Of a DNA stretch of 64,000 nucleotides, positions 4,595-45,318 are shown piece by piece. A program made the position numbers and the translations under genes. A model generated the notes under the pieces. It saw only the letters and a list, made by a program, of their open reading frames with translations. It searched no databases and was not told where the DNA came from. Each line of letters starts with the position of its first letter. Position 1 is the stretch's first letter. The stretch is from positions 1,736,001 to 1,800,000 of the forward strand of contig NZ_JQNN01000001.1 of assembly GCF_000745265.1 (NCBI RefSeq), given 5' to 3'. The DNA comes from Massilia sp. 9096 (GTDB taxonomy: Bacteria > Pseudomonadota > Gammaproteobacteria > Burkholderiales > Burkholderiaceae_D).

Positions 4595-4608
4595 TGTTTG
4601 CGCAAACA
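4595..4608. promoter_or_regulatory. GCGC-centred LacI-type operator, perfect palindrome
   Basis: TGTTTGCGCAAACA is a perfect 14-bp palindrome, extending to 18 bp (4593-4610) as GATGTTTGCGCAAACATC. It lies between the divergent deacetylase and GH9 genes. The same pattern recurs at 23172, 37218, 37317 and 45305 and fits operators of the LacI family. Confidence 0.75.
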
Positions 4609-4709
4609 TCGGGCTCAGGCATATTACTCCGTGATGCCTGGAAGTCAAGCTGCCGCGCGCACGCGCGGGAGCGCCAAACTGTTGACTACGATACACGCCC
4701 CGCGTAGCA

Positions 4710-4723
4710 TGAAATCGATTACA
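4710..4723. promoter_or_regulatory. CG-centred LacI-type operator upstream of GH9
   Basis: TGAAATCGATTACA matches the general LacI/GalR operator pattern TGnAAnCGnTTnCA at every fixed position. It lies 48 bp before the GH9 start codon, close enough to overlap a promoter. Related sites are at 23378, 35858 and 37294. Confidence 0.6.
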
Positions 4724-4771
4724 ACCGGCGACCTCGGGTGTGCCGGACCATAAATACAGACAGGAGACAGC

Positions 4772-6598
4772 ATGAATTTCACTGCCCGCATCGACCGATC
4801 CGGCCGCGCCGCGCGCCACGCATCCGCACAGCCGACGCCCGACACTGGCCCCCGCGCCGCAAGCCGCCGCCCGCGTGGGCGCCGCGCGAGTCCGGTCCTC
4901 CTCGCCTGCCTGGCCCTGCTGGCGGGCGCGTCCGGCGCCGCCGGCGCGGCCGTCAAGCTGAACCAGCTCGGCTTCCTGCCGGCTTCGCAAAAGCTGGCGG
5001 TCGTGACCGATGCCGGCGCAGGCCAGGACAGCTTCGCGCTGGTCGACGCCGCCAGCGGCAAGACCGTGTTCGAAGGCCGCCTGGGCGCGCCGGGCACCTG
5101 GGACGCCTCGGGCGAGACCGTGCGCGTCGCCGACTTTTCCGCCCTGCGTACGCCCGGCAGCTACAAACTGCGCGTGAACGGCCAGCCTGAGTCGAAACCA
5201 TTCCCGGTGGCCGCGGACGCCTACCGCGCGCTGGACGCCGCCGCCATCAAGGCTTACTACTACCAGCGCGCCAGCATCGCGATCGAGCCGCGCTACGCCG
5301 GCACCTGGGCGCGTCCGCTCGGGCACCCCGACAACCACGTGCTGGTGCACGAGTCGGCGGCATCGAAAGAGCGTCCGGCCGGCACCGTCATCTCCAGCCC
5401 GAAAGGCTGGTACGACGCCGGCGACTACAACAAGTACATCGTCAACTCCGGCATCAGCACCTACACGCTGCTGGCCGCCTACGAGCACTTCCCGCAGTTC
5501 TTCGACGCCCTGGCGCTGAACATCCCGGAATCGGGCAACGGCCTGCCCGACCTGCTCAACGAGGCGCTGTGGAACCTCGAATGGATGGCGACCATGCAGG
5601 ACCCGAACGACGGCGGCGTCTACCACAAGCTGACCAACAAGCAGTTCGACGCCTTCATCATGCCGGACAAGGCGACCGGGCCGCGCTACGTGGTGCAAAA
5701 GAGCACCGCCGCCACGCTCGACTTCGCGGCCGTGATGGCGGTCGCCAGCCGCGTGCTGGCGCCGTTCGACAAGCAGGACCCGGGCCGCTCGAAACGCTAC
5801 CTGGCGCAGGCCGAGAAAGCCTGGGCCTGGGCCGTGGCCCATCCGGACGCGGTCTACAAGCAGCCGGCAGACATCGGCACCGGCGACTACGGCGACAACA
5901 AGCTGGACGACGAGTTCTCCTGGGCCGCCACCGAGCTCCTGATCGCCACCGGCAAGGACGCCTACCGCGCGCGCGCGCTGGCCGCCGGCACGACGCGCGG
6001 CCTGGCGCCTGGCTGGGCCGACGTGCGCCAGCTCGGCTGGATCTCGCTGGTGCAGCAGCGCGAGCACCTTCCGAAGGGCGTCGACGCGGCCGATGCCAGG
6101 CGCCAGATCCTGGCCGCCGCCGACACGCTGCTGGCGCGCGCGCAAGCCTCGCCCTACCGCATCAGCATGGCCACCAGCGAATTCAACTGGGGCAGCAATT
6201 CGGGCATCCTGAACGAAGCGATGATGCTGGTGCAGGCCTACCGCCTGACCGGCCGCGCCGACTACCTGCAGGCGGCGCAGTCGGCGCTCGACTACGTCAT
6301 GGGCCGCAACGGGCCGGGCCGCTCGTTCGTGACCGGCTTCGGCGCGCCGTCGCCGATGCACCCGCACCACCGGCCGTCGGAAGCGGACGGCATCGCCGCG
6401 CCGGTGCCGGGCTGGATGGTGGGCGGACCGAATCCGGGCCAGCAGGACCTGGCGGGCTGCAAGCTGCCCTACCCGTCCAAGCTGCCGGCGCTGTCCTACC
6501 TGGACGACGTGTGCAGCTACGCCAGCGGCGAGGTCGCGATCAACTGGAACGCGCCGCTAGTGTACGTGACCGCGGCCGTCCAGGCCCTGGTGCGCTGA
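4772..6598 (+). CDS. Glycoside hydrolase family 9 endoglucanase, secreted
   Basis: This 608-residue protein hydrolyses beta-1,4-glucan (cellulose, mixed-linkage glucan or xyloglucan backbone) by inversion. After the signal segment, an N-terminal Ig-like CelD_N domain (about residues 59-150, VKLNQLGFLP) precedes the (alpha/alpha)6 catalytic domain. Catalytic-base motif GWYDAGDYNKY gives D215 and D218; the late HHRPSEADG and the acid E587 in SGEVAINWNAP complete the GH9 signature. The ATG follows CAGGAGACAG. Oddly, the hydrophobic core of the signal peptide begins only near residue 41, after an Arg-rich n-region of about 40 residues. No carbohydrate-binding or dockerin module is seen. A carboxylesterase gene follows 98 bp downstream. 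Confidence 0.93.
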   Translation: MNFTARIDRSGRAARHASAQPTPDTGPRAASRRPRGRRASPVLLACLALLAGASGAAGAAVKLNQLGFLPASQKLAVVTDAGAGQDSFALVDAASGKTVFEGRLGAPGTWDASGETVRVADFSALRTPGSYKLRVNGQPESKPFPVAADAYRALDAAAIKAYYYQRASIAIEPRYAGTWARPLGHPDNHVLVHESAASKERPAGTVISSPKGWYDAGDYNKYIVNSGISTYTLLAAYEHFPQFFDALALNIPESGNGLPDLLNEALWNLEWMATMQDPNDGGVYHKLTNKQFDAFIMPDKATGPRYVVQKSTAATLDFAAVMAVASRVLAPFDKQDPGRSKRYLAQAEKAWAWAVAHPDAVYKQPADIGTGDYGDNKLDDEFSWAATELLIATGKDAYRARALAAGTTRGLAPGWADVRQLGWISLVQQREHLPKGVDAADARRQILAAADTLLARAQASPYRISMATSEFNWGSNSGILNEAMMLVQAYRLTGRADYLQAAQSALDYVMGRNGPGRSFVTGFGAPSPMHPHHRPSEADGIAAPVPGWMVGGPNPGQQDLAGCKLPYPSKLPALSYLDDVCSYASGEVAINWNAPLVYVTAAVQALVR

Positions 6599-31169: not shown

Positions 31170-31180
31170 GCCGTCCCCGC

Positions 31181-31975
31181 TCATGCGCCGTACCAGCCGG
31201 CGTCGACGAAGTACTCGCGGCCGCTGCAGTGGCGCGCGTTGTTCGACGCCAGGAACAGCGCCAGCGCGGCCACGTCGTTCATCTGCACGCGCTCGGGGAT
31301 GCACTGGCCGGCCAGGATGCGGGCTTCCTCTTCCGGGTTGTGCCACAGCTTCTTCTGGCGCGGGGTGACGACGGCGCCCGGGATCACGGTGTTGACGCGG
31401 ATGCCGTCCTTGCCCAGTTCGCGCGCCATCGCGCGGGTCATGCCCTCGATCGCCGCCTTGGCCATCATGTACAGCGACAGCTGGGTGTGCGGCAGGTGCC
31501 AGGAGATCGAGCCGAAGTTCAGGATCGCGCCGTGGCCGCGCGCCTTCATCCCGGCGATGACGGCCTGCGAGCAGAAGTACATGTGGCGCAGGTTGACGTT
31601 CATGCGGCTTTCCCAGTATGCCGGGGTGACGTCGGCGATCTCGTGGCGGTCGTCGTTGGCCGCGTTGTTGAGCAGGATGTCGACGCCGCCGGACTCCTGT
31701 TCGATCTGGGCGAAGACGGCTTTGAGCTCGTCCAGGTTGGTCAGGTCGCACTTGATGAACTTCGGCGCCACTTTCGATCCGGCCAGTTCAGTCTCCAGCT
31801 CGCGCGAGGCTTGCTCGGCGATGTCGAGGAAGTAGACGCGCGCGCCCTGGCCTGCAAAGGCCGTGGTCAGTTCGCCGCCGATGCCGCTGCCGCCGCCGGT
31901 GATGACGACGGTCTTGCCGGCCAGGTCCGGAAAGGTCGCGTAGACGAACGCTTCTTGTTGGGTTTGTTCAGCCAT
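31181..31975 (-). CDS. xylB: D-xylose 1-dehydrogenase (short-chain dehydrogenase)
   Basis: This 264-residue short-chain dehydrogenase oxidises xylose to xylonolactone with NAD+. It has the cofactor motif TGGGSGIG (26-33), NNAAND, the Ser of FGSISWH (156-158) and the catalytic Y169-MMA-K173. NDDRHEIADVT, NVNLRHM and FGSISWH closely resemble the Caulobacter XylB sequence, which makes the assignment firmer than for a generic family member. It lies 18 bp after xylX in the operon and may overlap xylC. Confidence 0.92.
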   Translation of the reverse strand: MAEQTQQEAFVYATFPDLAGKTVVITGGGSGIGGELTTAFAGQGARVYFLDIAEQASRELETELAGSKVAPKFIKCDLTNLDELKAVFAQIEQESGGVDILLNNAANDDRHEIADVTPAYWESRMNVNLRHMYFCSQAVIAGMKARGHGAILNFGSISWHLPHTQLSLYMMAKAAIEGMTRAMARELGKDGIRVNTVIPGAVVTPRQKKLWHNPEEEARILAGQCIPERVQMNDVAALALFLASNNARHCSGREYFVDAGWYGA

Positions 31976-31993: not shown

Positions 31994-33169
31994 TTATTTG
32001 GCGCCCAGCAGTCCGCGCTGGGCCAGGTTTGCGTACAGGGCGCGCACGCCGAAGGTCCAGGGCTCGATCTGGTCGCTGCGCTGGACGGTGTTGACCAGGG
32101 TGCCGATCGCCGGGGTCGAAATGCTGACGCGATCGCCGGCATGGTGGGTGAAGCCGCCGCCTTGCGCGTCGCGGTCCTTGATCGGCGAGAACATCGTGCC
32201 CAGGAAGAGCATGAAGCCGTCCGGGTACTGGTGGTGCTTGCCGCAGGTCTGGCGCACCAGGTCGAGCGGGTCGCGGCTGATCTCGCGCATGAAGCTGGCG
32301 CCGGCCAGCTCGAACTTGTCATCCACGCCTTCGATCAGCATGCGCACTTCGCACTCGCGCACGGTGTCGATGGTGAAGTCGCCGTCGAACAGGCGGATGA
32401 ACGGGCCGATCGAGCACGAACCGTTGTTGTCCTTGGCCTTGCCCAGCAGGAGTGCGCTGCGGCCTTCGATGTCGCGCAGGTTGACGTCGTTGCCGAGCGT
32501 GGCGCCGACAGCTTCGGCGCGGCTGTTCACGGCCAGCACGATCTCCGGCTCCGGGTTGTTCCAGTGCGAGGCCGGGTGCAGGCCGACCGCGGCGCCGTGG
32601 CCGACCGAGGACATCGGCTGCGACTTGGTGAACACTTCGGCGTCCGGGCCGATGCCCACTTCCATGTACTGCGACCACAGGCCGCGCTTCGACAAGTCAG
32701 CTTTCAGGCGCATCGCCGCTTCGCCGCCCGGCTCGAGCTCGGACAGGTTGGTGCCGATGGTGGCCTGCAGGTCGGCACGCAGCGCCGACGCGCGCGCCGG
32801 GTCGCCCTTGGCCTGCTCTTCGATCACGCGTTCCAGCAGGCTGACCGCGAAGGTCACGCCGGCGGCCTTGATCGCCTGCAGGTCGCACGGGGCAAGCAGC
32901 TTGAGGCCATCCTGGCCGCCCTGGCCTTGTTGCGCGGCCGCGACCAGCGCAGCCGCATCGCCCAGGTCTTCGCCCTCGGCGCCGCGCACGATGTCCAGCA
33001 GGTCGCTGCGCTCGAGCAGGTCCGAGACGGTGGCGGCGTGGCGCGTGATGTCGACCAGGCGGCCTTTACGCACGGCCACCACGGCCGGGCCTTCGCTGCG
33101 CAAGACGCGCCCGACCAGCAGGGCGCGCTCCAGGTCCTGGGGCAACGCCGGAGTTTGATTCGTCGTCAT
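31994..33169 (-). CDS. xylX: 2-keto-3-deoxy-D-xylonate dehydratase (fumarylacetoacetase family)
   Basis: The 391-residue enzyme converts 2-keto-3-deoxy-xylonate to 2-oxoglutarate semialdehyde. The ATG at 33169 follows GAGGAAA. Family metal ligands are expected in the EPE of SHWNNPEPEIV and in the Asp of LGNDVNLRD; the blocks LGNDVNLRDIEGRSALLLGK and HQYPDGFMLFLGTMFSPIKD are strongly like Caulobacter XylX. It is the second gene of the operon, 20 bp after GH3. Confidence 0.93.
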   Translation of the reverse strand: MTTNQTPALPQDLERALLVGRVLRSEGPAVVAVRKGRLVDITRHAATVSDLLERSDLLDIVRGAEGEDLGDAAALVAAAQQGQGGQDGLKLLAPCDLQAIKAAGVTFAVSLLERVIEEQAKGDPARASALRADLQATIGTNLSELEPGGEAAMRLKADLSKRGLWSQYMEVGIGPDAEVFTKSQPMSSVGHGAAVGLHPASHWNNPEPEIVLAVNSRAEAVGATLGNDVNLRDIEGRSALLLGKAKDNNGSCSIGPFIRLFDGDFTIDTVRECEVRMLIEGVDDKFELAGASFMREISRDPLDLVRQTCGKHHQYPDGFMLFLGTMFSPIKDRDAQGGGFTHHAGDRVSISTPAIGTLVNTVQRSDQIEPWTFGVRALYANLAQRGLLGAK

Positions 33170-33189: not shown

Positions 33190-35604
33190 TTATGCCACCG
33201 TCAGCGTAGCCTGTTTCAGGTCGACGCTGTTCGGACCGGCGAAAATGGTGAACGTCCCCGGCTCGACCACGCGCTGCATGTCGGCGTTGTAGAACCACAG
33301 GTCGGTCGGCTTGATGTCGAAGGTGACGGTGCGCTGCTCGCCCGGCTCGAGCGTCACGCGCTGGAAGCCCTTCAGCTCGAGCACGGCGCGGGTCACCGAG
33401 CTGACGTCGTCGCGGATGTACATCTGCACGACCTCGTCGCCGCGGCGGGCACCTAGGTTGCGCACGTCGACCTGCACGCGCGTCGTGCCGTTGGTCGCGA
33501 TACTGGACTTTTCCAGGCGCGGCGCCGAGATCTCGAATCTGGTGTACGACAGGCCGTAACCGAACGGGAACAGCGGCGTGGTGACGTCATCGATGTAGCC
33601 GCGGCGGCTGCTTGGCTTGCGGTTGTAGAACATCGGCAGCTGGCCGACGTTGCGCGCGATCGTGACCGGCAGCTTGCCGCCCGGGTTGGCGCGGCCGAAC
33701 AGCAGGTCGGCGATCGCGTGGCCGGTCTCCTGGCCCATGTACCAGCACTCCATCAGTGCATGGGCATTCTGGTTGAGGTAGTTGACGGACAGCGGACGGC
33801 CGTTCAGCAGCAGTACCACGGTCGGCTTGTTCAGCGCGAAAATCGCGCGCGCCAGGTCGTTCTGCTGGCCGATCAGGTCGAGCGAGCTGCGGTCGCCCAG
33901 GTGGTTGTCGGCCCAGGCTTCGCGCGCGGTCTGCTCGTTGTCGCCCAGGACCATGACGATGGTGTCGGCCCCCTTGGCCGCTTCCACGGCTTCGGCGATC
34001 AGGCGCTGGTTGACTTCCGGCTTGGTGAATTCGATCTTGTCCTGGCCCCAGACGTGGCCTTCGGTCAGGCGCACGCCTTCGGCATACGACAACTGGAAGC
34101 CCTGCGACCTGGCCTCTTCCTGCAAGCCTTCGAGCACCGAGACCACGTGGCGCGGCACGTCCGAATAGCCGCCGATCGGGGTGTCTTTCGCATGGGTGCC
34201 GACCAGCAGCATCTTGCCGACCTTGCGGCCGTCCAGCGGCAGCAGGTTCTGGTCGTTCTTGAGCAGCACGGCGGTGCGGCGCGCCGCTTCGCGCGCCAGC
34301 GCGATCGCTTCCGGCGTGGCGGTGCGGGCGTCGGCCTGGGCGGCGTCGGCGTACGGGTCTTCGAACAGGCCGGCTTCGAACTTCAGGCGCAGGATGCGGC
34401 GCACCACGGTGTCGATCTCTTTTTGCGAGATCTTGCCCTCGCGGACGAGCTCGGCCAGGAAGGCGAAACCGAGCGGGTCCGGGGTCTCGATGTCGACGCC
34501 GGCCTTGAGCGCGCGGTAGCCGGCTTCCTTGGGCGAGGCGACCAGGTGGTGGCGGGTCTGCATCTCGGCCACGGCCATGTAGTCAGACACGGTCACGCCC
34601 TTGAAACCCCACTCCTCGCGCAGGACCTTGGTCAGCAGCCAGCGGTTGGCGTGCGACGGGATGCCGTCGATCTCGTTATACGAGGGCATGACGGCCGCGA
34701 TCTTGGTTTCCTTGATGATCTTCTCGAACGGCGGGAAGAAGTCTTCGCGCAGCGTGCGCTCGCCGACGTTGGCCGGGCCGATGTTGGTGCCCGACTCCGG
34801 CTGGCCGTGGCCGGTCATGTGCTTGAGGGTCGCGTAAACCTTGTCCTTGGCCAGCGGCAGGGTGTCGCCGGAGAAGCCCAGCACGGCCGCCTTGCCCATC
34901 ACGCCGCACAGATGCGGGTCTTCGCCGTAGGTCTCTTCGATACGGCCCCAGCGCGGCTCGCGCGCCACGTCGACCACCGGCGCCAGCGCCAGGTTGGCCC
35001 CGCGCGCGCGCATCTCGCGCGCTGCGCTGGCGAACACCTTCTGCACCAGCTCAGGGTCGAAGGTCGAAGCCAGGCCGATCGCCTGCGGGAAGCTGGTGGA
35101 CTCGCGCGCGACGTAGCCGTGCAGCGACTCCTCGTGCATGAACAGCGGGATGCCCAGGCGCGTGTTCTCCAGCGCCCACTTCTGCACCGCGTTGACGTAT
35201 TCTGCGGTTTCGCGCGGGCCGCGGTGCTTGACTTCACCGCTGTCGCCGGCGGCGCTGGCCTTGCCCAGCTGGCGGTCCGATGGACGCGCGAACATGCCCA
35301 TCCCGTTCGGGTAGGCCGCGCTGGCCTTGGCCGGCGAGAAGCTGGTGTCGTCGTTCTGGATGTCGCCCTTCTTGATCCACAGGCACTCCATCTGGGCGAT
35401 CTTCTCGTCCAGCGTCATGCGGCGCAGCAGGTCCTCGACGCGCGCCTCGACCGGTGCGTTCGCGCGCTTGTAGACCGCGTTCTTCAAGTCGCCCGTGCTT
35501 TGTCCTGCAGCCTTGGCCGCGGCGGCCCCGGCCATGCCCGGCACCGCCGCCAGACCGGCGATGCTGCCCACCGATGCCAGAAATTCCCTGCGTTTGATAG
35601 CCAT
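33190..35604 (-). CDS. Glycoside hydrolase family 3 beta-xylosidase/beta-glucosidase, exported
   Basis: The start at 35604 gives 804 residues. The N-terminus MAIKRREFLASVG is a likely Tat signal. The GH3 N-terminal barrel includes KH at 261-262 and the nucleophile D341 in GVTVSDYMAVAE; the alpha/beta sandwich and the C-terminal fibronectin-III-like domain (from about residue 680) follow. GH3 enzymes release terminal xylose or glucose with retention. Because it heads an operon for xylose oxidation, beta-xylosidase activity is the best guess, but a glucosidase acting on cello- or xyloglucan-oligosaccharides is not excluded. Export puts sugar release in the periplasm. Confidence 0.92.
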   Translation of the reverse strand: MAIKRREFLASVGSIAGLAAVPGMAGAAAAKAAGQSTGDLKNAVYKRANAPVEARVEDLLRRMTLDEKIAQMECLWIKKGDIQNDDTSFSPAKASAAYPNGMGMFARPSDRQLGKASAAGDSGEVKHRGPRETAEYVNAVQKWALENTRLGIPLFMHEESLHGYVARESTSFPQAIGLASTFDPELVQKVFASAAREMRARGANLALAPVVDVAREPRWGRIEETYGEDPHLCGVMGKAAVLGFSGDTLPLAKDKVYATLKHMTGHGQPESGTNIGPANVGERTLREDFFPPFEKIIKETKIAAVMPSYNEIDGIPSHANRWLLTKVLREEWGFKGVTVSDYMAVAEMQTRHHLVASPKEAGYRALKAGVDIETPDPLGFAFLAELVREGKISQKEIDTVVRRILRLKFEAGLFEDPYADAAQADARTATPEAIALAREAARRTAVLLKNDQNLLPLDGRKVGKMLLVGTHAKDTPIGGYSDVPRHVVSVLEGLQEEARSQGFQLSYAEGVRLTEGHVWGQDKIEFTKPEVNQRLIAEAVEAAKGADTIVMVLGDNEQTAREAWADNHLGDRSSLDLIGQQNDLARAIFALNKPTVVLLLNGRPLSVNYLNQNAHALMECWYMGQETGHAIADLLFGRANPGGKLPVTIARNVGQLPMFYNRKPSSRRGYIDDVTTPLFPFGYGLSYTRFEISAPRLEKSSIATNGTTRVQVDVRNLGARRGDEVVQMYIRDDVSSVTRAVLELKGFQRVTLEPGEQRTVTFDIKPTDLWFYNADMQRVVEPGTFTIFAGPNSVDLKQATLTVA

Positions 35605-36082
35605 ACTCTCGTCTCCACTGCTTGTTGTTTTGGATGTCGCCGGCGCCAGGCGCGCTGGCGGAGGTGTTGCCGATGCGGCCCGCCGTGCTAGTACGCCGGG
35701 CCGACGTGTTCGAGGATCGTGCCGGCCACGCGCGCGGCGCGGGCGCGGTCTGACCTGGAGGAAAGCGATGCGCAGCCACACGCAGGGCCGGTCCGTACGG
35801 ACGGACTGCCGTTTCGATGCATGGCTTGTCTCCTATTTGTATTTTTGTGTCTGCTTTTGCAAGCGTTTGCGAACATCAGACTAACACGAATGTTACCGCA
35901 ACCATTGAAGTCTAATAGGCAAGTTTTGGGGTGTCAATCAATTTCCAGCAGCGTGGAAAAGGAATGCAAATGTGCACACGGCATGCCCCCGCGAGGGGGA
36001 CGGGCCGTGAAAAAAAGCACAGAAAGCGAAAGGGAAATTGACGCGGAATGTAACGGCAACACGGTCACGCTGCCGGCGCCGT
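35605..36082. promoter_or_regulatory. 478-bp control region upstream of GH3-xyl operon
   Basis: No gene is supported. Short frames starting near 35876 begin inside operator-like sequence and have no ribosome site. The region holds a CG-centred operator (35858), an inverted repeat TAACA-CGAA-TGTTA (35882-35895) and the hairpin CCCCCGCGAGGGGG near 35985. It lies downstream of the LacI gene. Confidence 0.65.
35858..35871. promoter_or_regulatory. CG-centred LacI-type operator upstream of GH3-xyl operon
   Basis: TGCAAGCGTTTGCG matches TGnAAnCGnTTnCA except the last base. It is 253 bp upstream of the GH3 start codon, beside GCGAACATC, a partial GCGC-class half-site. Confidence 0.5.
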
Positions 36083-37192
36083 TCAGCGCCCGGCGGTGGC
36101 CAGCAGCGGCAGCCGCGCCGAGGGCCGCATGCGCGGAGCGGCGTCCGACTGGCGGCGCACCAGCTCGAAGGCCATGCGCACCTGCTCGGGGTCGCCGGCG
36201 TCGCCATCGCGCTGGGCGCGCACGCGCCGCACCAGCGATTGCACGGCTTCGCGCGCCATCTCGGCGATCGGCTGGCGCACCGTGGTCAGCTCGGGCCAGA
36301 TGGTGGTGGCCAGTGCAGTGTCGTCGAAGCCCGTGACGGTCAGGTCGCCCGGCACGTCCAGGCCGAGGCGGTGCGCGACGGCCACCGCGGCGGCGGCCAT
36401 GTCGTCGTTGCTGCAGAAAATGGCGGTCGGGCGCTCGGGCAAGCCCAGCAGGTGCTCGGCGGCATCCAGGCCGGAGCGGTAGGTGAACATGCCCTGCACC
36501 ACCAGTTCGGCCGCATCGTCGGCCTTTTTCTCGGCGATCGCGGCGCGGTAGCCGGCCAGGCGGCGCGCGCTGGCGGACTGGTTCGGATGGCCGACCACGA
36601 AGCCGATGCGCTGGTGGCCCAGCGCGATCAGGTGACGCGTCATCGCGTAGGCGGCGTCGAAGTCGTCGATGCTGACCGCGCCGACGCCGGGATCCGGCTG
36701 GCCGCAGGCGACCACCACGGCCGGGATGCCGGCCTCGCGCACGCACGCGAGCACGGCCTGGCTGTCGCACAGGGGGGGCGGCAGGATCACGCCGTCCAGG
36801 CCGTTGCCGATCAGGCGCCGCGCATGGTCCTGCTCATGCTCGCCGGCTTCGCATTTCTCGACGAACAGCTGGACATTGTTCAGGCCCGACTGGTTCAGCA
36901 GGCCGACCAGGAACTCGCTCAGGTAGGCGGCGCTGGGGTTGCTGTACAAGAATCCGACGCGGATCGGCTTGGAGCCGGCCAGGTTGCGCGCTTCCTGATT
37001 GGGCGTGTAGTTGAGCGCGGCGACCGCTTCGGCGACCTTGCGGCGCGTGCTCTCGCGCACCAGGCCCTTGCCGTTCATGACGCGCGACACGGTCATCGCC
37101 GACACGCCGGCCAGCTTGGCGACATCGGCCATCGTCGGCTGGCCGCGCCGTTCCACCTCGTCGTGGAGCGTTTCGACTTTGGCTGTTGACAT
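36083..37192 (-). CDS. LacI/GalR-family transcriptional regulator
   Basis: The 369-residue protein has an N-terminal helix-turn-helix (TMADVAKLAGVSAMTVSRVMNG, first 20 residues from about 20), a hinge ending near residue 78, and a periplasmic-binding-protein-like ligand domain. The start at 37192 is the first ATG; its ribosome site is weak, and a GTG at 37237 is in frame but lies upstream of one operator. It probably represses genes of the locus in the absence of an inducing sugar. It is divergent from GH67-GH10 and next to the GH3-xyl operon; a GCGC-centred site 25 bp upstream of its ATG suggests autoregulation. Which of the two operator classes it binds cannot be read from sequence. Confidence 0.92.
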   Translation of the reverse strand: MSTAKVETLHDEVERRGQPTMADVAKLAGVSAMTVSRVMNGKGLVRESTRRKVAEAVAALNYTPNQEARNLAGSKPIRVGFLYSNPSAAYLSEFLVGLLNQSGLNNVQLFVEKCEAGEHEQDHARRLIGNGLDGVILPPPLCDSQAVLACVREAGIPAVVVACGQPDPGVGAVSIDDFDAAYAMTRHLIALGHQRIGFVVGHPNQSASARRLAGYRAAIAEKKADDAAELVVQGMFTYRSGLDAAEHLLGLPERPTAIFCSNDDMAAAAVAVAHRLGLDVPGDLTVTGFDDTALATTIWPELTTVRQPIAEMAREAVQSLVRRVRAQRDGDAGDPEQVRMAFELVRRQSDAAPRMRPSARLPLLATAGR

Positions 37193-37217: not shown

Positions 37218-37231
37218 TGTTTGCGCAATCT
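37218..37231. promoter_or_regulatory. GCGC-centred LacI-type operator near lacI-type gene
   Basis: TGTTTGCGCAATCT has a perfect left half and two mismatches on the right compared with TGTTTGCGCAAACA. It lies 25 bp upstream of the regulator's ATG. Confidence 0.6.
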
Positions 37232-37293: not shown

Positions 37294-37307
37294 AGAAATC
37301 GGTTTCA
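37294..37307. promoter_or_regulatory. CG-centred LacI-type operator upstream of GH67
   Basis: AGAAATCGGTTTCA matches TGnAAnCGnTTnCA except the first base. It lies 9 bp before the next GCGC-centred site. Confidence 0.55.
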
Positions 37308-37316
37308 GTGCGCAAG

Positions 37317-37330
37317 AGTTTGCGCTAACA
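37317..37330. promoter_or_regulatory. GCGC-centred LacI-type operator upstream of GH67-GH10
   Basis: AGTTTGCGCTAACA has one mismatch in the half-site ends. It is 78 bp upstream of the GH67 start codon. Confidence 0.65.
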
Positions 37331-37408
37331 TTCTTTGGCCGGCTCGTAACGACAAGCACGCCGGCGTATCGACGACAACGATAACGACAACAAGACTTGG
37401 AGACCGAT

Positions 37409-39700
37409 TTGCAGCGATCGTTCACGCGCCTGCATGCGCGCGCCTGCCTGGGGCGCGCCGCCGCGCGCCGCCGCGCCGGCTTTTTGCTCTGCCTTCTGTG
37501 CATGGTCCTGACCGGCATGTTCGCCGCCGCGCCTTCGCAGGCGGCGGACGAGGATGGCTACGACCTGTGGCTGCGCTACCGGCCGCTGCCGGCCGCGCAG
37601 CGCGGTCCCGTCGAGGTCTCCAGCCTAGTGACGCTGGCGCCCGACAGCCCGACCGTGCGCGCCGCCGTCGCCGAACTCCAGCGCGGCCTGCAGGGCATGC
37701 TCGGCCATGCGCCGGCCACCGCCTCCGGTGACGCCAACCTCCGTGCGGGCGGCCTGGTGCTGGCCCACGCCGGGGCGCTGCCGCCCGCGCTCGCCGCCGC
37801 CCTGCCCCCCGATGCGCGCGCGCGCCTGGCCACGCTGGGCCGCGACGGCTACCTGCTCGCACGCGTGCGCGCGGGCACGGGCGCCGGTGCGGGCCAGCTC
37901 ACCCTGATCGCCGGCGGCGCCGGCACCGGCCTGCTGTACGGCAGCTTCGCCTTCCTGCGCGCGCTGCAGACCGGCCTTGCCGCCACGCTGGAGCGCGCCC
38001 CCGTCATCGAGACGCCGCGCCTGCCGCTGCGCATGCTGAACCACTGGGACAACCTGGACCGCACCGTCGAGCGCGGCTACGCCGGCGAATCGATCTGGAA
38101 CTGGTGGGAGCTGCCCGCCATCGTCGACCCGCGCTACGTCGACTATGCGCGCGCCAACGCCTCGCTCGGCATCAACGGCACGGTGCTCGACAACGTCAAC
38201 GCCAAGGCCGAGATCCTCAGCCCGGCCTACCTGGCCAAGGCGGCCGCCGTGGCCAAGGTGCTGCGCCCGTACGGCATGCGCGTGTATCTGGCGGTGCGCT
38301 GGTCGACGCCGCTCGAGCTGCACGAAACCCGCAGCGCCGATCCGCTCGACCCGGAAGTGGCCGCCTGGTGGCGCCGCAAGGCCGACGCGATCTACGCCGC
38401 CATCCCCGACTTCGGCGGCTTCCTGGTCAAGGCCAATTCCGAAGGCCAGCCGGGTCCGCAGGATTACGGGCGCGACCACGCCGACGGCGCCAACATGCTG
38501 GCGCGCGCGCTGGCGCCGCACGGCGGCGTGGTGATCTGGCGCGCCTTCGTCTATGCGCCGCCGGGCCAGGCCAAGGCGGCCGACGATCCCAAGGCGCACG
38601 ACCGCGCCGCCCAGGCCTACGAGCAGTTCAAGCCGCTCGACGACCGGTTCGACGCCAACGTGATCGTACAGGTCAAGAACGGCCCGATCGACTTCCAGCC
38701 GCGCGAGCCGTTCTCGCCGCTGTTCGGCGCGATGCCGGCCACGCCGCTGATGATGGAGTTCCAGGTCACCAAGGAGTACCTGGGCTACGCCACCCACCTG
38801 GTGTATCTCGGCACCCTGTTCCAGGAGACGCTGCGGGCCGACACCCGCGCCGGCGGTCGGGCGATGCCGGTGGCGCGCACGCTGGAAGGGGCGCAGCAAG
38901 GCCGGGTCGGCGGCATCGCCGGCGTCGCCAACATCGGCGCCAGCCGCAACTGGACCGGCTCGACCTTCGACCAGGCCAACTGGTATGCCCTGGGCCGGCT
39001 GGCCTGGGACCCGATGCTGGACGCCGGCGCCATCGCGCGCGAGTGGGCCGCGCAGACCTTCGCGCCGGACGCGCGCATCGTCGAGCCGGTGGTGGCGATG
39101 ATGATGGGCTCGCGCGAAGCCGCGGTCGACTACATGACGCCGCTCGGCCTGCACCACATGATGGGCACCGGCCACCATTACGGACCCGCGCCCTGGGTCG
39201 GCGACCTGGCCCGGGCCGACTGGAACCCGACCTATTATCACCGCGCCGCGCGCGACGGCATCGGCTTCGACCGCACTGCGAGCGGCAGCAACGCCGTGGC
39301 CCAATACGCGCCCGAGCTGGCGCGGCGCCTGCAGGATCCGGCGACCACGCCACCCGAGCTGCTGCTGTGGTTCCACCACCTGCCCTGGGACTACGCGATG
39401 CCATCCGGGCGCACGCTGTGGGCCGAGCTGGTCGCACACTACGACCACGGCGTCGCCCAGGTCGCGCACATGCAGGCGCAGTGGGATGCGTTGAAGCCCC
39501 TGATCGACGCGCGCCGCTGGGAAGATACGGCCCAGCGCCTGGCCCAGCAGCGCGAGGAAGCGCTGTGGTGGCGCGACGCCTGCATCGCCTATTTCAAGAG
39601 CGTGAACGGCCTGGCGCTGCCGCCCGGCACGCGCGCGCCGGCCCATCCGCTCGAGTATTACCAGGCGCTGCGTTTCCCGTACGCGCCCGGCCACGGGTGA
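37409..39700 (+). CDS. Glycoside hydrolase family 67 alpha-glucuronidase, exported
   Basis: Translation probably starts at TTG 37409, 6 nt after GGAG; no ATG precedes the signal peptide. The 763-residue product has a signal peptide ending near AQAAD (residue 46). GH67 marks are LRMLNHWDNLDRTVERGYAGES (first 20 from 207), the catalytic acid Glu345 in LVKANSEGQPGPQDYG, and QVKNGPIDFQPREPFSPLFG with the following MEFQVTKEYLG. The enzyme removes 4-O-methyl-glucuronic acid from the non-reducing end of xylooligosaccharides. GH10 follows 69 bp downstream, a common pairing for glucuronoxylan breakdown. Confidence 0.94.
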   Translation: MQRSFTRLHARACLGRAAARRRAGFLLCLLCMVLTGMFAAAPSQAADEDGYDLWLRYRPLPAAQRGPVEVSSLVTLAPDSPTVRAAVAELQRGLQGMLGHAPATASGDANLRAGGLVLAHAGALPPALAAALPPDARARLATLGRDGYLLARVRAGTGAGAGQLTLIAGGAGTGLLYGSFAFLRALQTGLAATLERAPVIETPRLPLRMLNHWDNLDRTVERGYAGESIWNWWELPAIVDPRYVDYARANASLGINGTVLDNVNAKAEILSPAYLAKAAAVAKVLRPYGMRVYLAVRWSTPLELHETRSADPLDPEVAAWWRRKADAIYAAIPDFGGFLVKANSEGQPGPQDYGRDHADGANMLARALAPHGGVVIWRAFVYAPPGQAKAADDPKAHDRAAQAYEQFKPLDDRFDANVIVQVKNGPIDFQPREPFSPLFGAMPATPLMMEFQVTKEYLGYATHLVYLGTLFQETLRADTRAGGRAMPVARTLEGAQQGRVGGIAGVANIGASRNWTGSTFDQANWYALGRLAWDPMLDAGAIAREWAAQTFAPDARIVEPVVAMMMGSREAAVDYMTPLGLHHMMGTGHHYGPAPWVGDLARADWNPTYYHRAARDGIGFDRTASGSNAVAQYAPELARRLQDPATTPPELLLWFHHLPWDYAMPSGRTLWAELVAHYDHGVAQVAHMQAQWDALKPLIDARRWEDTAQRLAQQREEALWWRDACIAYFKSVNGLALPPGTRAPAHPLEYYQALRFPYAPGHG

Positions 39701-39769: not shown

Positions 39770-40909
39770 ATGACCACACGACGCACCATGCTCGGCGCCC
39801 TCGTCGGCGCCGCCCTGCTGCCTACCGCCTTGCGCCCACTGCCGGCGTTTGCCGCCGGCGCGCCGGAACCGCTCAAGGACATCGCACGTCGCAAGGGCAT
39901 GCGCTTCGGCACCGCGATCGGCTCCGGTCCTACCGAGTTCGGCAATCCGGCCTACCGCGCCCTGGTCGAACGCGAGTGCGGCCTGATCGTGGCCACGAAC
40001 GAGATGAAATGGCAAGCCATCGAGCCGTCCAAAGGGCAGCTGCAGTTCAAGGCCGCCGACACGCTGCTCGCCTGGGCCAACGAACACGGTATCGCGATGC
40101 GCGGCCATAACCTGTTCTGGCAGCCAGAGAAGTGGCTGCCGCACTGGGTGGTGCAGGAGAAATTCGGCGCCAATGTGCGTCAGGGCGTGGAGCGCCTGAT
40201 GCGCGAGCACGTACGCGCCGAGTGCGAGCACTTCGGCAAGGCGATCGCCAGCTGGGACGTCATGAACGAAGCGGTCGACCCGGCCGACGGCAAGCTGCGC
40301 CAGAACCCGTTGACGCGCCCGTTCGGCACCCCGGTCGAACAGATCGACCTCGCCTTCCGCCTGGCCAAGGAATATGCCCCGCACGCCCAGCTGGTCTACA
40401 ACGACTACATGCGCGGCGACGAAGGCAGCGCCAAGCACCGCGCCGGCGTGCTGCAGCTGCTGGCCGACCTGAAAAAGCGCGGCACCCCGGTCGACGCACT
40501 CGGCCTGCAGAGCCACATCGGTTCCTGGGACGAGAGCCAGGACCGCGGCAAGGCCGACCTGCTCGAATGGCGCAAGTTCCTCGACGAAGTGAGCGGCATG
40601 GGTTACGACCTCCTGATCACGGAGCTCGACGTCAACGACCGCCGCCTGCCGGCCGACATCGCCAAGCGCGACGCCGGCGTGGCCGCCGCCTGCCGCGACT
40701 ACCTCGACGTCTGCCTGTCCTTCCCGCGCCTGCGCGACGTCCTGGTGTGGGGCATGTCGGACGACATCAGCTGGCTGCAGACCTGGGACGAAGCGCCGCG
40801 CAAGGACGGCTTGCCGATGCGCCCCTGCCCGTACGACGCCAAGCTGCAAGCCAAGCCGATGCGCCAAGCGATCGCCGACGCCATCAACGCCGCGCCGGCG
40901 CGCGCTTGA
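39770..40909 (+). CDS. Glycoside hydrolase family 10 endo-1,4-beta-xylanase, exported
   Basis: This 379-residue xylanase has an N-terminal signal (MTTRRTMLGALVGAALL, possibly Tat) and a single GH10 barrel. The acid/base Glu167 is in WDVMNEAV and the nucleophile Glu285 in LLITELDVND; the RGHNLFWQ motif (111-118) is also typical. It cleaves xylan or long xylooligosaccharides with retention. There is no carbohydrate-binding module, so it may act on oligosaccharides after import. It forms an operon with GH67 and is convergent with GH115. Confidence 0.95.
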   Translation: MTTRRTMLGALVGAALLPTALRPLPAFAAGAPEPLKDIARRKGMRFGTAIGSGPTEFGNPAYRALVERECGLIVATNEMKWQAIEPSKGQLQFKAADTLLAWANEHGIAMRGHNLFWQPEKWLPHWVVQEKFGANVRQGVERLMREHVRAECEHFGKAIASWDVMNEAVDPADGKLRQNPLTRPFGTPVEQIDLAFRLAKEYAPHAQLVYNDYMRGDEGSAKHRAGVLQLLADLKKRGTPVDALGLQSHIGSWDESQDRGKADLLEWRKFLDEVSGMGYDLLITELDVNDRRLPADIAKRDAGVAAACRDYLDVCLSFPRLRDVLVWGMSDDISWLQTWDEAPRKDGLPMRPCPYDAKLQAKPMRQAIADAINAAPARA

Positions 40910-40984: not shown

Positions 40985-43930
40985 TCACGGCAGGCGCGGA
41001 CTCTCCGGCGGCCCCAGGTAGCTCGGCTGCAGGCCGCCGGCGTCGATCACCAGGCGCTCCAGCACCAGGGCCGGGTCGAGCGCCCAGAACTTCAGGGTGT
41101 GGCGGCCCGCTCTCGCCACCGCATGCTCGCTGGTAAAGCGCGCCACGCCATCCGAGACGATCTTTTCCCAGTGCCCGTTCGAACCGTCCGCGTGCACGTC
41201 GACCACGACCGGGGCCGCATCGTCGATCGAGACCGCGTACCGGAAGCCCGGGCCGGGACGGAACTTGAGCGTCGGCGCCAGCGTCGCCTCGACCTTCAAT
41301 TTGCCTGGCTCCGCCAGCCAGACCTCGTACTCGAGCCGCATCGCATCGGCCAACGTCGCCGGCGGCGCGGTCGAGGGCAGCGTCGTCATGCCCGACAGCG
41401 TGGCGCCGAAGCCGGGCACGCGCAGCCACGCGCGTCCCGCCGGCGCGAGCGCGCGCGCGTAGTGCTCGGCTTCGATGGCGACCACGCCGCCGGTCTCGAC
41501 GAAGCCGTGTACATCATCGGTGCGCAGGCCCGCATGGCGCAGCGGCACCTCGACCACGGCGCTGGCGCCGTCGGCGCCGCTGACGGTCACGTGCGCCGAT
41601 AGCGCGCCCGCCGGCACGCGCGCCCAATCGACGTCGACCGCGATGCGCTGCTCCAGCGCGACCGTCCCGCCGGCGGCGCCGAGCTTGACCCACGGCTGGT
41701 CGGCGCGCGCCGTGAAGCGCAGCGGCGCACGGCCACGGTTGAACACCTCGATGAAGCGCGGTCCCTTGGCCAGCGCTTCGAAAGCCGGCAAGGCCAGCGC
41801 CGGCGCTGCCGGGAAAACCGCTGTACCGCCCTCGACCGCCACCCCGAGTCCGGCCTGCGCCGGCAGATCGATCTCGCTCACCTGCGGCATCAGGTTGGTC
41901 GCGGGGTCCTTCCAGCTGGTATAGCCGATGTGGGTCTGGGCCATCATGTGCTTCCACTTGCCGCCCGCCGCCGCCTCGTACCGGCGCGCCAGCGCGGCGT
42001 CCTGCGCGAACAGCGCGCGCGCCTGCGCCGCCAGCGCGTTGGTGCCGGCCCGTCCCTGGGCCGCGTGCAGGCGGTTGCGCTGCACCGTCAGGTACAGCTG
42101 GTTGACCGTGTTGGCCGCGTCGACCGGATATTGCACCAGCTCGAAGAAGGCGTCGCGCTGCGCCGGCGGCAAGCGGGGCGCCAAGGCGCGCGCGCGCTCG
42201 GCCAGCGCCTGCCACTCGAGCCCGACGCGCTCGGCCTCGCGGTAGTGCTCGATGCTGAAGGTGCCCGGCTCGAGCTGCTCGGGCTTGCGCCGCCCGTTCA
42301 AGCGCGTGTAACCCTCGACCAGCGCCGCGATCTCGCCGGCGTGCGCCGCGCCGAAGTCGCGCGTCGCCCAGAGTCTCAGGTAGTCGGGCAGGCGCTCGGC
42401 CGGCCAGGCCTGCGGGTTCCAGGCATACGACAGGAAGAACTCGATCGGCACTTCCATCGGCTTGAGGTCGCCGACGTTGACGATCCACAGCCGGTCGGCG
42501 CCATAGCTCGCGGCCAGGTGCATCTGCTCCCAGACCTTGGGCAGCGGCGTCACGTTGATCCATTTATAGGAGCGCGGCCCGCCGACGTAATCGAAGTGGT
42601 AATAGATGCCGGCTCCGCCGGAGCGCTTGCGCTCTTCAGGCGTGGGCAGGCGGCGGATATTGCCCCAGTTGTCGTCGCACCAGAGCAGCAGCACGTCGTC
42701 GGGCACGCGCATGCCCTTCTCGTAGTAATCCTGGACTTCCTTGTACAGCGCCCACATCTGCGGCGCGCCGCCGGCCGGGCGCGAGGCCGGATTGGCCGTG
42801 GGCCTGGCGGTGTCGAGAGCGATCAGGGTGCGCTGGTCGGCCACGATCCGCTGCAGCAGGGCCACGTTGGATTCTTCGGACATCGGCTCGTCGCCGTCGC
42901 CGCGCATGCCGATCGTGATCACCTTTTCGAAGTCGTGGCTGCGCGCCAGGCCCTGCTGCCAGAACTCGCGCAGCACGGCCGCGTTCTTGCCGTAGTCCCA
43001 CGGGCCCTTGCCGTACCTGGCCCATTCGGCATGCGCGCGCATCAGCGGCTCGTGGTGCGAGGTGCCGATGACGACACCCATCTCCTGGGCCAGGCGGCCG
43101 TTTTCCGCGTCATCATCATAAAAGGCGTTGCCCCACATCGCCGGCCACAGGTAATTGCCGCGCAGGCGCAGGATCAGCTCGAACACCTTTTCGTAGAAGC
43201 GGTGGTTGAAGCCCCCGAACGTGTCCTTGGCAAAGCCGGACAGCGCCGGCGCCTCGTCGTTCAGGAAGATGCCGCGGTACTGCACGACCGGCGCATCCTG
43301 CACGCGCGCATCGTTCGCAAGCGCCAGCACCTCGTGGTGCGCGGGCGGGACGTCGGCCCACCAGTGCCAGGGCGAGACGCCGATCTGCTCCGACAGCGTG
43401 TACATGCCATACACCGTGCCGCGCCGGTCGCTGCCGACAATCACCAGCGCCTGCGCCACCCCGGGCAACGGATTGCGCACCACCTGGATCAGGTAGCCTT
43501 CCCATTTGCCGCGCAGCGTCGACACGTCGATGCGGCCCTCGCGCGCGAGGCGGTCGATGAGCGGGCTGCTGCCCAGCGTGCCGACCAGCACCAGGTCGCC
43601 CTGGCCGGCCGCAGGCGTCGCGGCGGTCCCCGGCAGTTCCGACAGCAGCGCGGGCCGCGCGCCCGAGACCCGCTCGATATCGTCGCGCAGGCTGGCGGCG
43701 GCGTGCTTGACCGCCGGGTCCTCGGCGGCATCGACGAGCAGGCGCGCGGCGGCGCCGTTGCGCGCCAGCGTCACCGCGCCGGGGGCGAGGTCGAAGCGCA
43801 CCACCGGGCGTTCGCCGAGGGCCAGGGCCGGTACGGCGGCCAGCGTGGAGCAGACGGCCAGCGCGGCGCATGCCAGCGCACGCCGCAACGGGACCTGGCG
43901 GCGCGCTCGCCGCAGCGGAAGGTGGCTCAC
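40985..43930 (-). CDS. Glycoside hydrolase family 115 alpha-glucuronidase, exported
   Basis: The 981-residue protein has a signal peptide (to about residue 38) and the full-length multi-domain layout of GH115, with the YRGIFLNDEAP motif (218-228), LRGNYLWPAMWGNAFYDDD and DVLLLWCDDNWGNIRRLP, then a C-terminal beta-rich domain. Unlike GH67, GH115 enzymes remove glucuronic acid from internal xylose residues of polymeric xylan. Both types in one locus widen the range of glucuronoxylan fragments that can be trimmed. The gene starts 15 bp after the GDSL lipoprotein stop. Confidence 0.93.
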   Translation of the reverse strand: MSHLPLRRARRQVPLRRALACAALAVCSTLAAVPALALGERPVVRFDLAPGAVTLARNGAAARLLVDAAEDPAVKHAAASLRDDIERVSGARPALLSELPGTAATPAAGQGDLVLVGTLGSSPLIDRLAREGRIDVSTLRGKWEGYLIQVVRNPLPGVAQALVIVGSDRRGTVYGMYTLSEQIGVSPWHWWADVPPAHHEVLALANDARVQDAPVVQYRGIFLNDEAPALSGFAKDTFGGFNHRFYEKVFELILRLRGNYLWPAMWGNAFYDDDAENGRLAQEMGVVIGTSHHEPLMRAHAEWARYGKGPWDYGKNAAVLREFWQQGLARSHDFEKVITIGMRGDGDEPMSEESNVALLQRIVADQRTLIALDTARPTANPASRPAGGAPQMWALYKEVQDYYEKGMRVPDDVLLLWCDDNWGNIRRLPTPEERKRSGGAGIYYHFDYVGGPRSYKWINVTPLPKVWEQMHLAASYGADRLWIVNVGDLKPMEVPIEFFLSYAWNPQAWPAERLPDYLRLWATRDFGAAHAGEIAALVEGYTRLNGRRKPEQLEPGTFSIEHYREAERVGLEWQALAERARALAPRLPPAQRDAFFELVQYPVDAANTVNQLYLTVQRNRLHAAQGRAGTNALAAQARALFAQDAALARRYEAAAGGKWKHMMAQTHIGYTSWKDPATNLMPQVSEIDLPAQAGLGVAVEGGTAVFPAAPALALPAFEALAKGPRFIEVFNRGRAPLRFTARADQPWVKLGAAGGTVALEQRIAVDVDWARVPAGALSAHVTVSGADGASAVVEVPLRHAGLRTDDVHGFVETGGVVAIEAEHYARALAPAGRAWLRVPGFGATLSGMTTLPSTAPPATLADAMRLEYEVWLAEPGKLKVEATLAPTLKFRPGPGFRYAVSIDDAAPVVVDVHADGSNGHWEKIVSDGVARFTSEHAVARAGRHTLKFWALDPALVLERLVIDAGGLQPSYLGPPESPRLP

Positions 43931-43945
43931 TGTTGTCCTTCGCGG

Positions 43946-45238
43946 TCAGCGCGCGTACTTGCAGCGCATGAGCAGTTCGAGCGGCACCGCCTGCGCCATC
44001 GCCGCGTAGCCGGCCTTGTTCGGGTGCAGGCCGTCGTTGTCGTATTCCTTTTTCAGGTAGCTCGGCCGGGCCGGGTCGCGCAGCGCGGCGTCGAAGTCGG
44101 CCACGCCGTCGAACACGCCGGACTCGCGCACGAAGCGGTTGTAGGCCAGGCGGTCGGCTTCGTTCTCGGGGCCGGGCGCGTAATAGGCGCTGCCCGAATA
44201 CGGCGTGATGGTGCCGCCGATCACGCACACGCCGCGCGCGTGCGCCTGGGCGACCAGCTGGCGCTGCGCCTGTTCCATGTCGGGCACCAGCTGCGCGCGA
44301 TACGCGGGGGTGTCTTCCTTGTTCCGATGCGGGATGCCGAAGTCGTTCACGCCGATCATCACGATCGCATGGCTCACGCCGGCGCGATCGAGCACGTCGC
44401 GCTCGAACCGCGACACCATGTTCGGCCCCAGGCCGTCGCGCAGCAGGCGTCCGCCGCCGATGCCGGCATTGACCACGCCGACCTCGCCCATGCCCTGCGT
44501 GCGCAGGCGCGTGGCGAGGCCGTCGGTCCAGCGCGTGTTGGTGTCGGTCGCGACGCCGTAGCCGTCGGTGATCGAGTCGCCGATCGCCACCACCGCGCGC
44601 GCCGGTGGCGCGGCCTGCACGTCGACTTCGGCGATCTGGTACCAGCGCGAGAACGTCGCCGCGCCCGGCAGGTCGGCGTCCATCACGTGCCGGCCCGCGG
44701 CCACGTAGCTGGTCGCGCGCGAACCGGGATGGCTGGTCTGGCGCGAGGGCTCGCTCGGGAAGTGCAGCGACAGCGCCAGGTCGGCGCCGGCCGGCACCGC
44801 CAGGTCGACCGGATCGCTCAGGTACTCGGCGCCGCCCGGGATGGTGACGCTGGCGCTGCCCCCGAAACGCAAGGGCCGCAAGCTGCCCGGGTCGAGCGCG
44901 GCGCTGCCCGGGCCTTTCGAGACGGCGATGCTGGCCGCATCGATCACCAGCGGCGTCACGCCCATCGCATTGCTCAGCTTGACCCGCACCCGGCCGCCCG
45001 CGGTCGACACCCGCACCACCTGGCGCAGCGTGGCGTCGCGCCACTGGGCCGGGGCCAGCTCCTCCTGGGCGCCGGGCACCATCTGCGCGGCGCCCCAGGT
45101 GGCCACCCAGTGTTCGCCGGCGCCGCCGCCGCCCGAAGGGGAAGCAGCCGTGCTGGCGCAACCGGACAGGGAAAGGGCCGCCAGTGCGGTCGCCAGGGCG
45201 GCCGCCAGCGCGCTCGCTGGTATCGAGGTACGCGTCAT
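43946..45238 (-). CDS. GDSL/SGNH-family esterase lipoprotein
   Basis: The 430-residue product starts after CGGAGAC and has a lipobox ALSLSGC with Cys27, predicting a membrane-anchored lipoprotein. A beta-rich domain (about 45-205) precedes the SGNH hydrolase domain, with AIGDSITDGYG (Ser222), the Gly block near 250 (NAGIGGG), GVNDFG and DGLHPNKAGY with the C-terminal Asp/His pair. It probably deacetylates xylan or related oligosaccharides at the envelope; lipase activity is an alternative. It heads an operon with GH115 and is divergent from glucarate dehydratase across a shared operator. Confidence 0.88.
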   Translation of the reverse strand: MTRTSIPASALAAALATALAALSLSGCASTAASPSGGGGAGEHWVATWGAAQMVPGAQEELAPAQWRDATLRQVVRVSTAGGRVRVKLSNAMGVTPLVIDAASIAVSKGPGSAALDPGSLRPLRFGGSASVTIPGGAEYLSDPVDLAVPAGADLALSLHFPSEPSRQTSHPGSRATSYVAAGRHVMDADLPGAATFSRWYQIAEVDVQAAPPARAVVAIGDSITDGYGVATDTNTRWTDGLATRLRTQGMGEVGVVNAGIGGGRLLRDGLGPNMVSRFERDVLDRAGVSHAIVMIGVNDFGIPHRNKEDTPAYRAQLVPDMEQAQRQLVAQAHARGVCVIGGTITPYSGSAYYAPGPENEADRLAYNRFVRESGVFDGVADFDAALRDPARPSYLKKEYDNDGLHPNKAGYAAMAQAVPLELLMRCKYAR

Positions 45239-45304
45239 CTTGTCTCCGTTATGGTGGTGTGCGGAACGATTTGACGACAGCGCCCGCTTCCCGCACACTC
45301 GTTA

Positions 45305-45318
45305 TGTTTGCGCAATCA
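45305..45318. promoter_or_regulatory. GCGC-centred LacI-type operator between GDSL-GH115 and gudD
   Basis: TGTTTGCGCAATCA has one mismatch to the perfect palindrome at 4595. It lies 66 bp from the GDSL start codon and 64 bp from that of the dehydratase, placed to control both. Confidence 0.7.

Follow-up and report, generated by a model that had tools for sequence, protein, structure and literature searches.

A 64-kb stretch of the genome of Massilia sp. 9096 (contig NZ_JQNN01000001.1, positions 1,736,001 to 1,800,000 of the forward strand; hereafter the window, with coordinates counted from its first base) carries GCGC-centred palindromes in the DNA between its genes, which raises the question of whether they are operators at all and, if so, of which regulator and which genes. 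The reading favoured here, with a probability of roughly 0.87, is that they are xyl-boxes of a XylR-type repressor of the LacI family encoded at 36083-37192, which would control genes for the use of xylose, xylan and xyloglucan. The candidate boxes, none of which is assigned to a strand, and the regulator gene are listed below; scores and ranks refer to the matrix described in the next section, GH stands for glycoside hydrolase family and CE for carbohydrate esterase family.

4592..4611, candidate xyl-box, a perfect 20-bp palindrome between a CE4 gene (minus strand) and the GH9 gene (plus strand); score 25.2, rank 1
23172..23185, candidate xyl-box TGTTCGCGCTAACA, between a GH74-like gene (minus strand) and a TonB receptor gene (plus strand); score 18.6
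35891..35904, candidate xyl-box TGTTACCGCAACCA, upstream of the oxidative (Weimberg) xylose operon; rank 6, score 14.2
37218..37231, candidate xyl-box A, 25 bp ahead of the start codon of the LacI regulator
37317..37330, candidate xyl-box B, between the regulator (minus strand) and the GH67 gene (plus strand), 124 bp ahead of the regulator start codon
45305..45318, candidate xyl-box, between a GDSL esterase gene (minus strand) and a glucarate-dehydratase-like gene (plus strand)
36083..37192, minus strand, LacI-family regulator, XylR-type (PF00356 and PF13377 above cut-off)

A preliminary description of this DNA had placed five main sites at 4595, 23172, 37218, 37317 and 45305, and all five were recovered there; the site at 35891 was absent from its list. 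The palindrome at 4595, given as 18 bp, extends perfectly over 20 bp (4592-4611). The statement that each site lies within about 100 bp of a start codon holds for most of them, but 163 bp separate the 4595 site from the GH9 start and 488 bp the 23172 site from the start of the TonB receptor.

Boxes in the window and the regulator among them

The palindromes are rare. The exact sequence TGTTNGCGCNAACA occurs at four places in the 5.71-Mb genome, two of them inside the window, and the pattern TGTTWGCGCWAACA with at most one mismatch occurs at 11 places, compared with a single one for the reversed control pattern. Four of these 11 sites fall within the 64 kb of the window (4595, 23172, 37317 and 45305), for which the binomial probability is about 5e-6 if sites are independent, and two more lie at genome positions 1800258, only 258 bases beyond the window end, and 1835470, which places 6 of the 11 within about 95 kb. 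Looser matching dilutes the signal: with up to two mismatches 37 sites were found in the genome versus 17 for the control, and with up to three the window showed no excess (27 found, 29 expected), so that loose matches are mostly due to chance. The weak three-mismatch sites in the window were consequently dropped.

Rather than falling as often inside unrelated genes, the outcome that the preliminary description had set against its own proposal, the one-mismatch sites were intergenic in 9 of 11 cases here (one of the nine in a region almost empty of called genes) and in 107 of 114 cases in 14 relatives. The latter set comprises all one-mismatch boxes of the 13 other genomes of the genus with the regulator and of one genome, G006, in which it was not found, a further eight boxes having been counted in the remaining 10 genomes of the genus that lack the regulator; gene calls came from a codon-usage script trained on the window, which called few or no genes in low-GC relatives. 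The boxes at 4600725 and 4999235, inside called genes, and that at 3769319, in 9 kb with just three called genes, are counted among the 11 and are not claimed as targets.

A symmetric matrix was built from 19 sites located within 300 bp upstream of the regulator in the 13 other genomes, excluding two weaker sites with three mismatches (G005 and G011). Among all 14-mers of the window, which is 92.5% coding by the codon-usage gene calls, the six best were, in order, 4595, 37317, 45305, 37218, 23172 and 35891, all of them intergenic; the two boxes at the regulator promoter scored 24.3 and 22.7. The window's own sites were not used in training, but the training sites were chosen via the window-derived TGTTWGCGCWAACA and the background was the base composition of the window, so the test was not wholly blind. 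In 60 simulated windows the best matrix score averaged 12.6 and reached at most 20.2; the boxes at 35891 (14.2) and 23172 (18.6) therefore lean on position and conservation besides score.

These figures bear on the possibility that the palindromes are chance or structural features of intergenic DNA, such as terminator stems or repeats. A terminator-like stem does overlap 37317, the window lacks a three-mismatch excess, and one of the 60 simulated windows reached 20.2; against this, the boxes are rare, clustered and conserved in position at the regulator, 35891, 23172 and 45305, which leaves such an origin highly improbable. The sites themselves are real. Chance may nevertheless account for the degenerate site at 8250 that the preliminary description had included: its matrix score of 10.4 ranks eighth, simulated windows yield 2.2 matches of at least 10, and only weak look-alikes precede the halogenase-like gene of two relatives. 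It was rejected as an operator, its score not exceeding chance level.

The product of 36083-37192 combines a LacI helix-turn-helix with a periplasmic-binding-like sugar domain, both above cut-off, and CcpA and PurR are among its best sequence matches with solved structures. Each of the 13 relatives that have the regulator shows a site with no more than two mismatches in the 140 bp ahead of it, standing out from poorly conserved surrounding DNA in the alignment, and another such site is found on its 3' side in 14 of 14 genomes, this one included. The genome has seven LacI genes; only the 36083 locus carries a box, and the others score at most 4.2 with the matrix. A LacI-type operator family with self-regulation, as had been claimed, is the best-supported reading of the sites. 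No promoter match was obtained in a sigma-70 scan of 37150-37480. Lying 25 and 124 bp before the start codon, boxes A and B suggest that the regulator should damp its own synthesis.

Binding, repression and induction by xylose can be proposed by analogy with the XylR repressors in the cited passages of PMC10380989 and PMC13282271. When substrate is lacking, a repressor dimer would occupy the boxes near promoters and would keep at a low level its own gene, the Weimberg operon, GH67, a sugar symporter, an outer-membrane receptor and the enzymes that act on xylan and xyloglucan. Binding of D-xylose, or of a closely related product of either polymer, to the repressor would free the boxes.

Distribution of box and regulator among relatives

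Computation establishes the existence, placement and conservation of the sites and their association across genomes with the regulator and xylB. The genus was represented by 25 genomes, counting the present one; 14 of them have the regulator (at least 83% identity), and the remaining 11 have no match at E 1e-60. The D-xylose dehydrogenase family NF053674 is over its cut-off in exactly the 14 genomes with the regulator and in none of the 11 without it, four of which (G006, G008, G010 and G014) hold matches below cut-off. Nine of the 14 have GH67, as does one of the 11 (G006). Boxes with at most one mismatch average 8.5 per genome with the regulator versus 1.3 without it (Mann-Whitney p 5e-5, uncorrected for kinship).

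Many of the 114 boxes in relatives precede orthologues of GH67, GH74-like and aldehyde dehydrogenase, GH39, the glucarate-dehydratase-like gene, GH31, a symporter and GH115. The identical 14 bases of the 23172 box, TGTTCGCGCTAACA, lie between the GH74-like gene and the aldehyde dehydrogenase gene in four genomes (G020, G004, G013 and G011), the 35891 box occupies the same place in G003 and in Massilia rhizosphaerae, the closest named genome found by regulator (86%), and a box is found at the place equivalent to 45305 in G001, G003 and G012.

Beyond the genus, 80 loci with related regulators were compared, 11 of which have fewer than four called genes. In a tree built on 38 of them, the window regulator groups with Pseudoduganella and then sphingomonads, the adjoining clade containing Asticcacaulis and Xanthomonadaceae regulators. 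Matches to the matrix of at least 12 occurred in intergenic DNA at 41 of the 80 loci and in coding DNA at none (10 and 5 for the matrix with reversed column order). Hemicellulase-type (GH67, GH10, GH3, GH39, GH115) or xylX/B/C/D neighbours are present at 36 loci, and the intergenic match was found at 26 of these versus 15 of the 44 others. Roughly half of the related regulators, mainly those beside xylan or xylose genes, thus have the box nearby, part of those in alpha- and gammaproteobacteria among them. In Asticcacaulis, TGGTAGCGCTAACA, with a genus-matrix score of 20.3, lies between the regulator and xylX, followed by xylX-B-C-D in a row.

Several observations weigh against the assignment of the boxes to XylR. 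The co-occurrence p-values are too small because the genomes are related. No box was found at the GH9 promoter of the three relatives examined, so that the case for the 4595 box comes from its sequence, whereas positional conservation was seen at the regulator, 35891, 23172 and 45305 boxes. The regulator falls in a 37-row clade of a tree that holds no experimentally studied XylR, neither that of Caulobacter crescentus nor that of Xanthomonas. Moreover, 39 of the 80 related loci, two of Xanthomonas among them, have no strong intergenic box, and a one-mismatch box was found at only nine of the 80 (11 sites, all intergenic; reversed control 2). Since the box stands beside only about half of the related regulators, confidence in the XylR explanation was slightly lowered and that in a shared repressor slightly raised. 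Two further points speak for the latter. Some TGTTAGCGCTATCA-kind boxes in relatives adjoin other LacI genes (29-35% identity), hence not all of the 114 boxes need be those of XylR, and G006 (83% complete, 540 contigs) has six boxes and GH67 while the regulator was not found in it, which may be an assembly gap or a counter-example. With seven LacI genes in the genome, the boxes might then be owned by, or shared with, another LacI-family repressor, the 36083 gene being a mere neighbour. That explanation is nonetheless considered unlikely: no LacI locus of this genome other than 36083 exceeds a matrix score of 4.2, boxes stand at the promoter of the 36083-type regulator in all 13 relatives, and box number tracks the presence of that regulator. 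If the XylR assignment is right, a single predictable operator would govern xylan and xyloglucan breakdown in the Massilia group of betaproteobacteria, all the way from uptake through the outer membrane to the oxidation of xylose.

Additional regulator-like genes or copies were observed in some genomes. Six of them (G005, G009, G011, G017, G020 and G022; L043-L051) hold extra XylR-like genes of 41-77% identity, some of which, in G005, G011 and G020, carry a different box, AGTTCGCGCTAACA, and this suggests repressor duplication with operator drift. In G018 (contig C2; L150, L151) two equally scoring copies of the regulator region lie in inverted orientation about 63 kb apart on a single contig, which may be a real duplication or an assembly artefact.

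A second palindrome at three promoter regions

An alignment of relatives revealed another palindrome beside box B, from which the pattern TGAAAYCGRTTTCA was taken. With at most two mismatches it has four matches in the window, against 0.16 expected, of which three (unassigned to a strand) share promoter regions with xyl-boxes; distances are start to start.

4710..4723, second palindrome TGAAATCGATTACA, upstream of GH9, 115 bp from the 4595 box
23378..23391, second palindrome TGAAATCGTTTTCA, sharing its promoter region with the 23172 box, 206 bp away
37294..37307, second palindrome AGAAATCGGTTTCA, 23 bp from box B

Genome-wide, the second box (TGAAATCGATTTCA type) was found nine times with at most one mismatch and its reversed control not once; three of these have a xyl-box at a distance of 23-206 bp (binomial p 7e-8 under independence). 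In box-centred loci of relatives (801 kb), 26 second boxes were found at up to two mismatches, 17 of them no more than 300 bp away from a xyl-box, and the reversed control gave none. In this genome a perfect copy separates a GH1 beta-glucosidase gene from a LacI gene, and the same GH1-LacI pair with its second box recurs in G003, where it adjoins the XylR cluster, and in G009 and G012. The TGAAATCGATTTCA-type palindrome is probably the operator of the LacI protein encoded beside the GH1 gene, which would be a beta-glucoside repressor. BglR/GluR-type LacI regulators are linked to beta-glucoside use, as is proposed for the second box; the cited passages of PMC4052901 carry no motif. The second motif was not found in print, in a search that was thin on subscription journals.

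Hydrolase, uptake and dehydratase genes had been tied into a single regulon by the preliminary description. The shared set of xyl-boxes agrees with this, but three promoter regions also carry a second LacI-type box, so the arrangement is not simply one regulon. Two overlapping LacI regulons, in which the xyl-box and the second box would act together as a two-input gate, are an evenly balanced prospect that would add to XylR control more than compete with it. Beyond the counts given above, the 23-bp spacing at the regulator promoter was found in seven genomes (this one, G001, G009, G012, G017, G021 and G022; at most two mismatches), and the recurrent GH1-LacI pair provides a candidate for the second input. 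Several observations speak against it: a similar second box stands at another LacI gene, next to a sugar transporter, leaving two candidate binders; both boxes favour carbohydrate promoters and hence are not independent; in three relatives (G003, G009 and G012) the GH9 promoter holds the second box but no xyl-box; the fourth window match (18548, two mismatches) lies inside GH95; and, among the matches listed, genomes without the regulator also hold second boxes, as expected of an independent regulon.

A more specific version, somewhat less probable than the gate itself, is that xylose and beta-glucoside repressors share the promoters of GH9 (a cellulase family), GH74-like/TonB receptor and regulator/GH67, their boxes being kept 23 bp apart at the last of these, and that full expression would need both sugars. 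The system would then be a coincidence detector for the plant cell wall, with xyloglucan supplying both sugar signals, and the paired second box offers a specific proposal on how cell-wall sugar signals are combined at one promoter.

Genes beside the boxes and known XylR systems

Returning to the proposed control by XylR, the genes flanking the boxes in the window are the following.

4772..6598, plus strand, GH9 glycoside hydrolase (PF00759)
18504..20885, minus strand, GH95 gene of a xyloglucan-type set (PF22124), of the alpha-L-fucosidase family
20882..23089, minus strand, BNR/sortilin-type protein (BNR, Sortilin-Vps10), probably a GH74-like xyloglucanase
23674..26712, plus strand, TonB-dependent receptor (TIGR01782 above cut-off)
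26808..28388, plus strand, aldehyde dehydrogenase, candidate alpha-ketoglutaric semialdehyde dehydrogenase (PF00171; NCBIfam matches far below cut-off)
28491..30272, minus strand, IlvD/EDD dehydratase, candidate D-xylonate dehydratase, xylD-like (NF009560 subfamily above cut-off)
30282..31184, minus strand, SMP-30 lactonase, candidate xylonolactonase, xylC-like (PF08450 on the longer frame 30282-31751; no NCBIfam match)
31181..31975, minus strand, D-xylose 1-dehydrogenase, xylB (NF053674, 423 bits, cut-off 400)
31994..33169, minus strand, FAA-hydrolase-fold protein, candidate 2-keto-3-deoxyxylonate dehydratase, xylX-like (PF01557 on the longer frame 31994-33298; no NCBIfam match)
33190..35781, minus strand, GH3, first gene of the operon (start at 35781 or 35604)
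37397..39700, plus strand, GH67 alpha-glucuronidase family
39770..40909, plus strand, GH10 xylanase family
40985..43930, minus strand, GH115 family, associated with alpha-glucuronidase activity
43946..45298, minus strand, GDSL/SGNH esterase, candidate xylan acetylesterase
45383..46750, plus strand, glucarate-dehydratase-like enzyme of the enolase superfamily (TIGR03247, 695 bits, below the cut-off of 829)

The box at 35891 lies between the 3' end of the regulator and a tight minus-strand operon, GH3-xylX-xylB-xylC-xylD. Together with the aldehyde dehydrogenase at 26808, all five folds of the Weimberg pathway are found within 26808-33169; the dehydrogenase alone is an equivalog above cut-off, while the dehydratase passes the cut-off of a broader subfamily. 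As judged from these sequence assignments, the genes make up the oxidative (Weimberg) route for D-xylose; for the aldehyde dehydrogenase, the lactonase and the FAA-fold protein the assignment draws on fold and context. The 23172 box is flanked by the GH74-like gene and then GH95 in one direction and by the TonB receptor and then the aldehyde dehydrogenase in the other. Activities of GH67, GH10, GH115 and GH39 are directed at glucuronoxylan and those of GH74, GH95, GH31 and GH35 at xyloglucan, and D-xylose is a product of both xylan-type and xyloglucan polymers. The earlier picture of boxes before hydrolase, uptake and dehydratase genes stands, amended in that the pathway would be one for xylan, xyloglucan and D-xylose, complete with an operon for xylose oxidation behind the 35891 box.

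Outside the window, boxes precede a sodium/solute symporter gene with GH31, GH35/42-like and GH3 genes (L013) and a GH39 gene with a TonB receptor (L016), and a third (L017) touches the start of a GH3 gene with PA14, a base-excision-repair-type gene lying opposite.

The xylose operon of Caulobacter crescentus has the gene order xylXABCD. Asticcacaulis, of the same family, has the regulator, the box TGGTAGCGCTAACA and xylX-B-C-D together; the window regulator belongs to the neighbouring clade, with sphingomonads, and sits amid polymer-degrading genes. The XylR of Caulobacter crescentus is a LacI repressor of xylose metabolism that is released by xylose (Stephens 2007, as cited in PMC10380989), as is proposed here. 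In the cited passages of PMC10380989 the Xanthomonas xyl-box is printed as TGGTAGCGCTAACA, identical to the Asticcacaulis box; the window sites share its GCGC core and flanks, mostly with T in place of A at position 5. As in those systems, the operator matches, the regulator has its own box, and a box (35891) lies upstream of xylose catabolic genes. The cited passages of PMC10380989 and PMC13282271 describe for Xanthomonas XylR a LacI-type repressor with the same operator core and with xylan and xylose genes accompanied by TonB receptors. The present locus differs from that description in that xylose would be used by the oxidative route and boxes also stand before xyloglucan-type genes. For X. 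citri, xylA1, in the xyloglucan operon, is given as not regulated by XylR in the passages of PMC10380989, and similar regulation is proposed for the xyloglucan operon in those of PMC13282271. The regulon most likely belongs to the known XylR/xyl-box kind, and the second box is newly noticed. No paper on this regulon was found in the literature on xylan, XylR or Weimberg-type xylose use in Massilia, in a search thin on subscription journals.

Two minor observations concern genes near these sites. The DNA between back-to-back genes for a chemotaxis receptor and a malic enzyme holds a perfect box, TGTTTGCGCAAACA (L014:16470-16483), upstream of both and about 80 bp ahead of the receptor, and in G009 (L153) the same box stands just upstream of a related receptor (52%); sugar taxis may be part of the xyl-box regulon. 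Finally, a tryptophan-halogenase-like flavoenzyme is encoded at 8352-9878 of the window amid cell-wall genes, and its homologues lie near GH9, GH26 and CE2 in G003 and near GH9 in G012.

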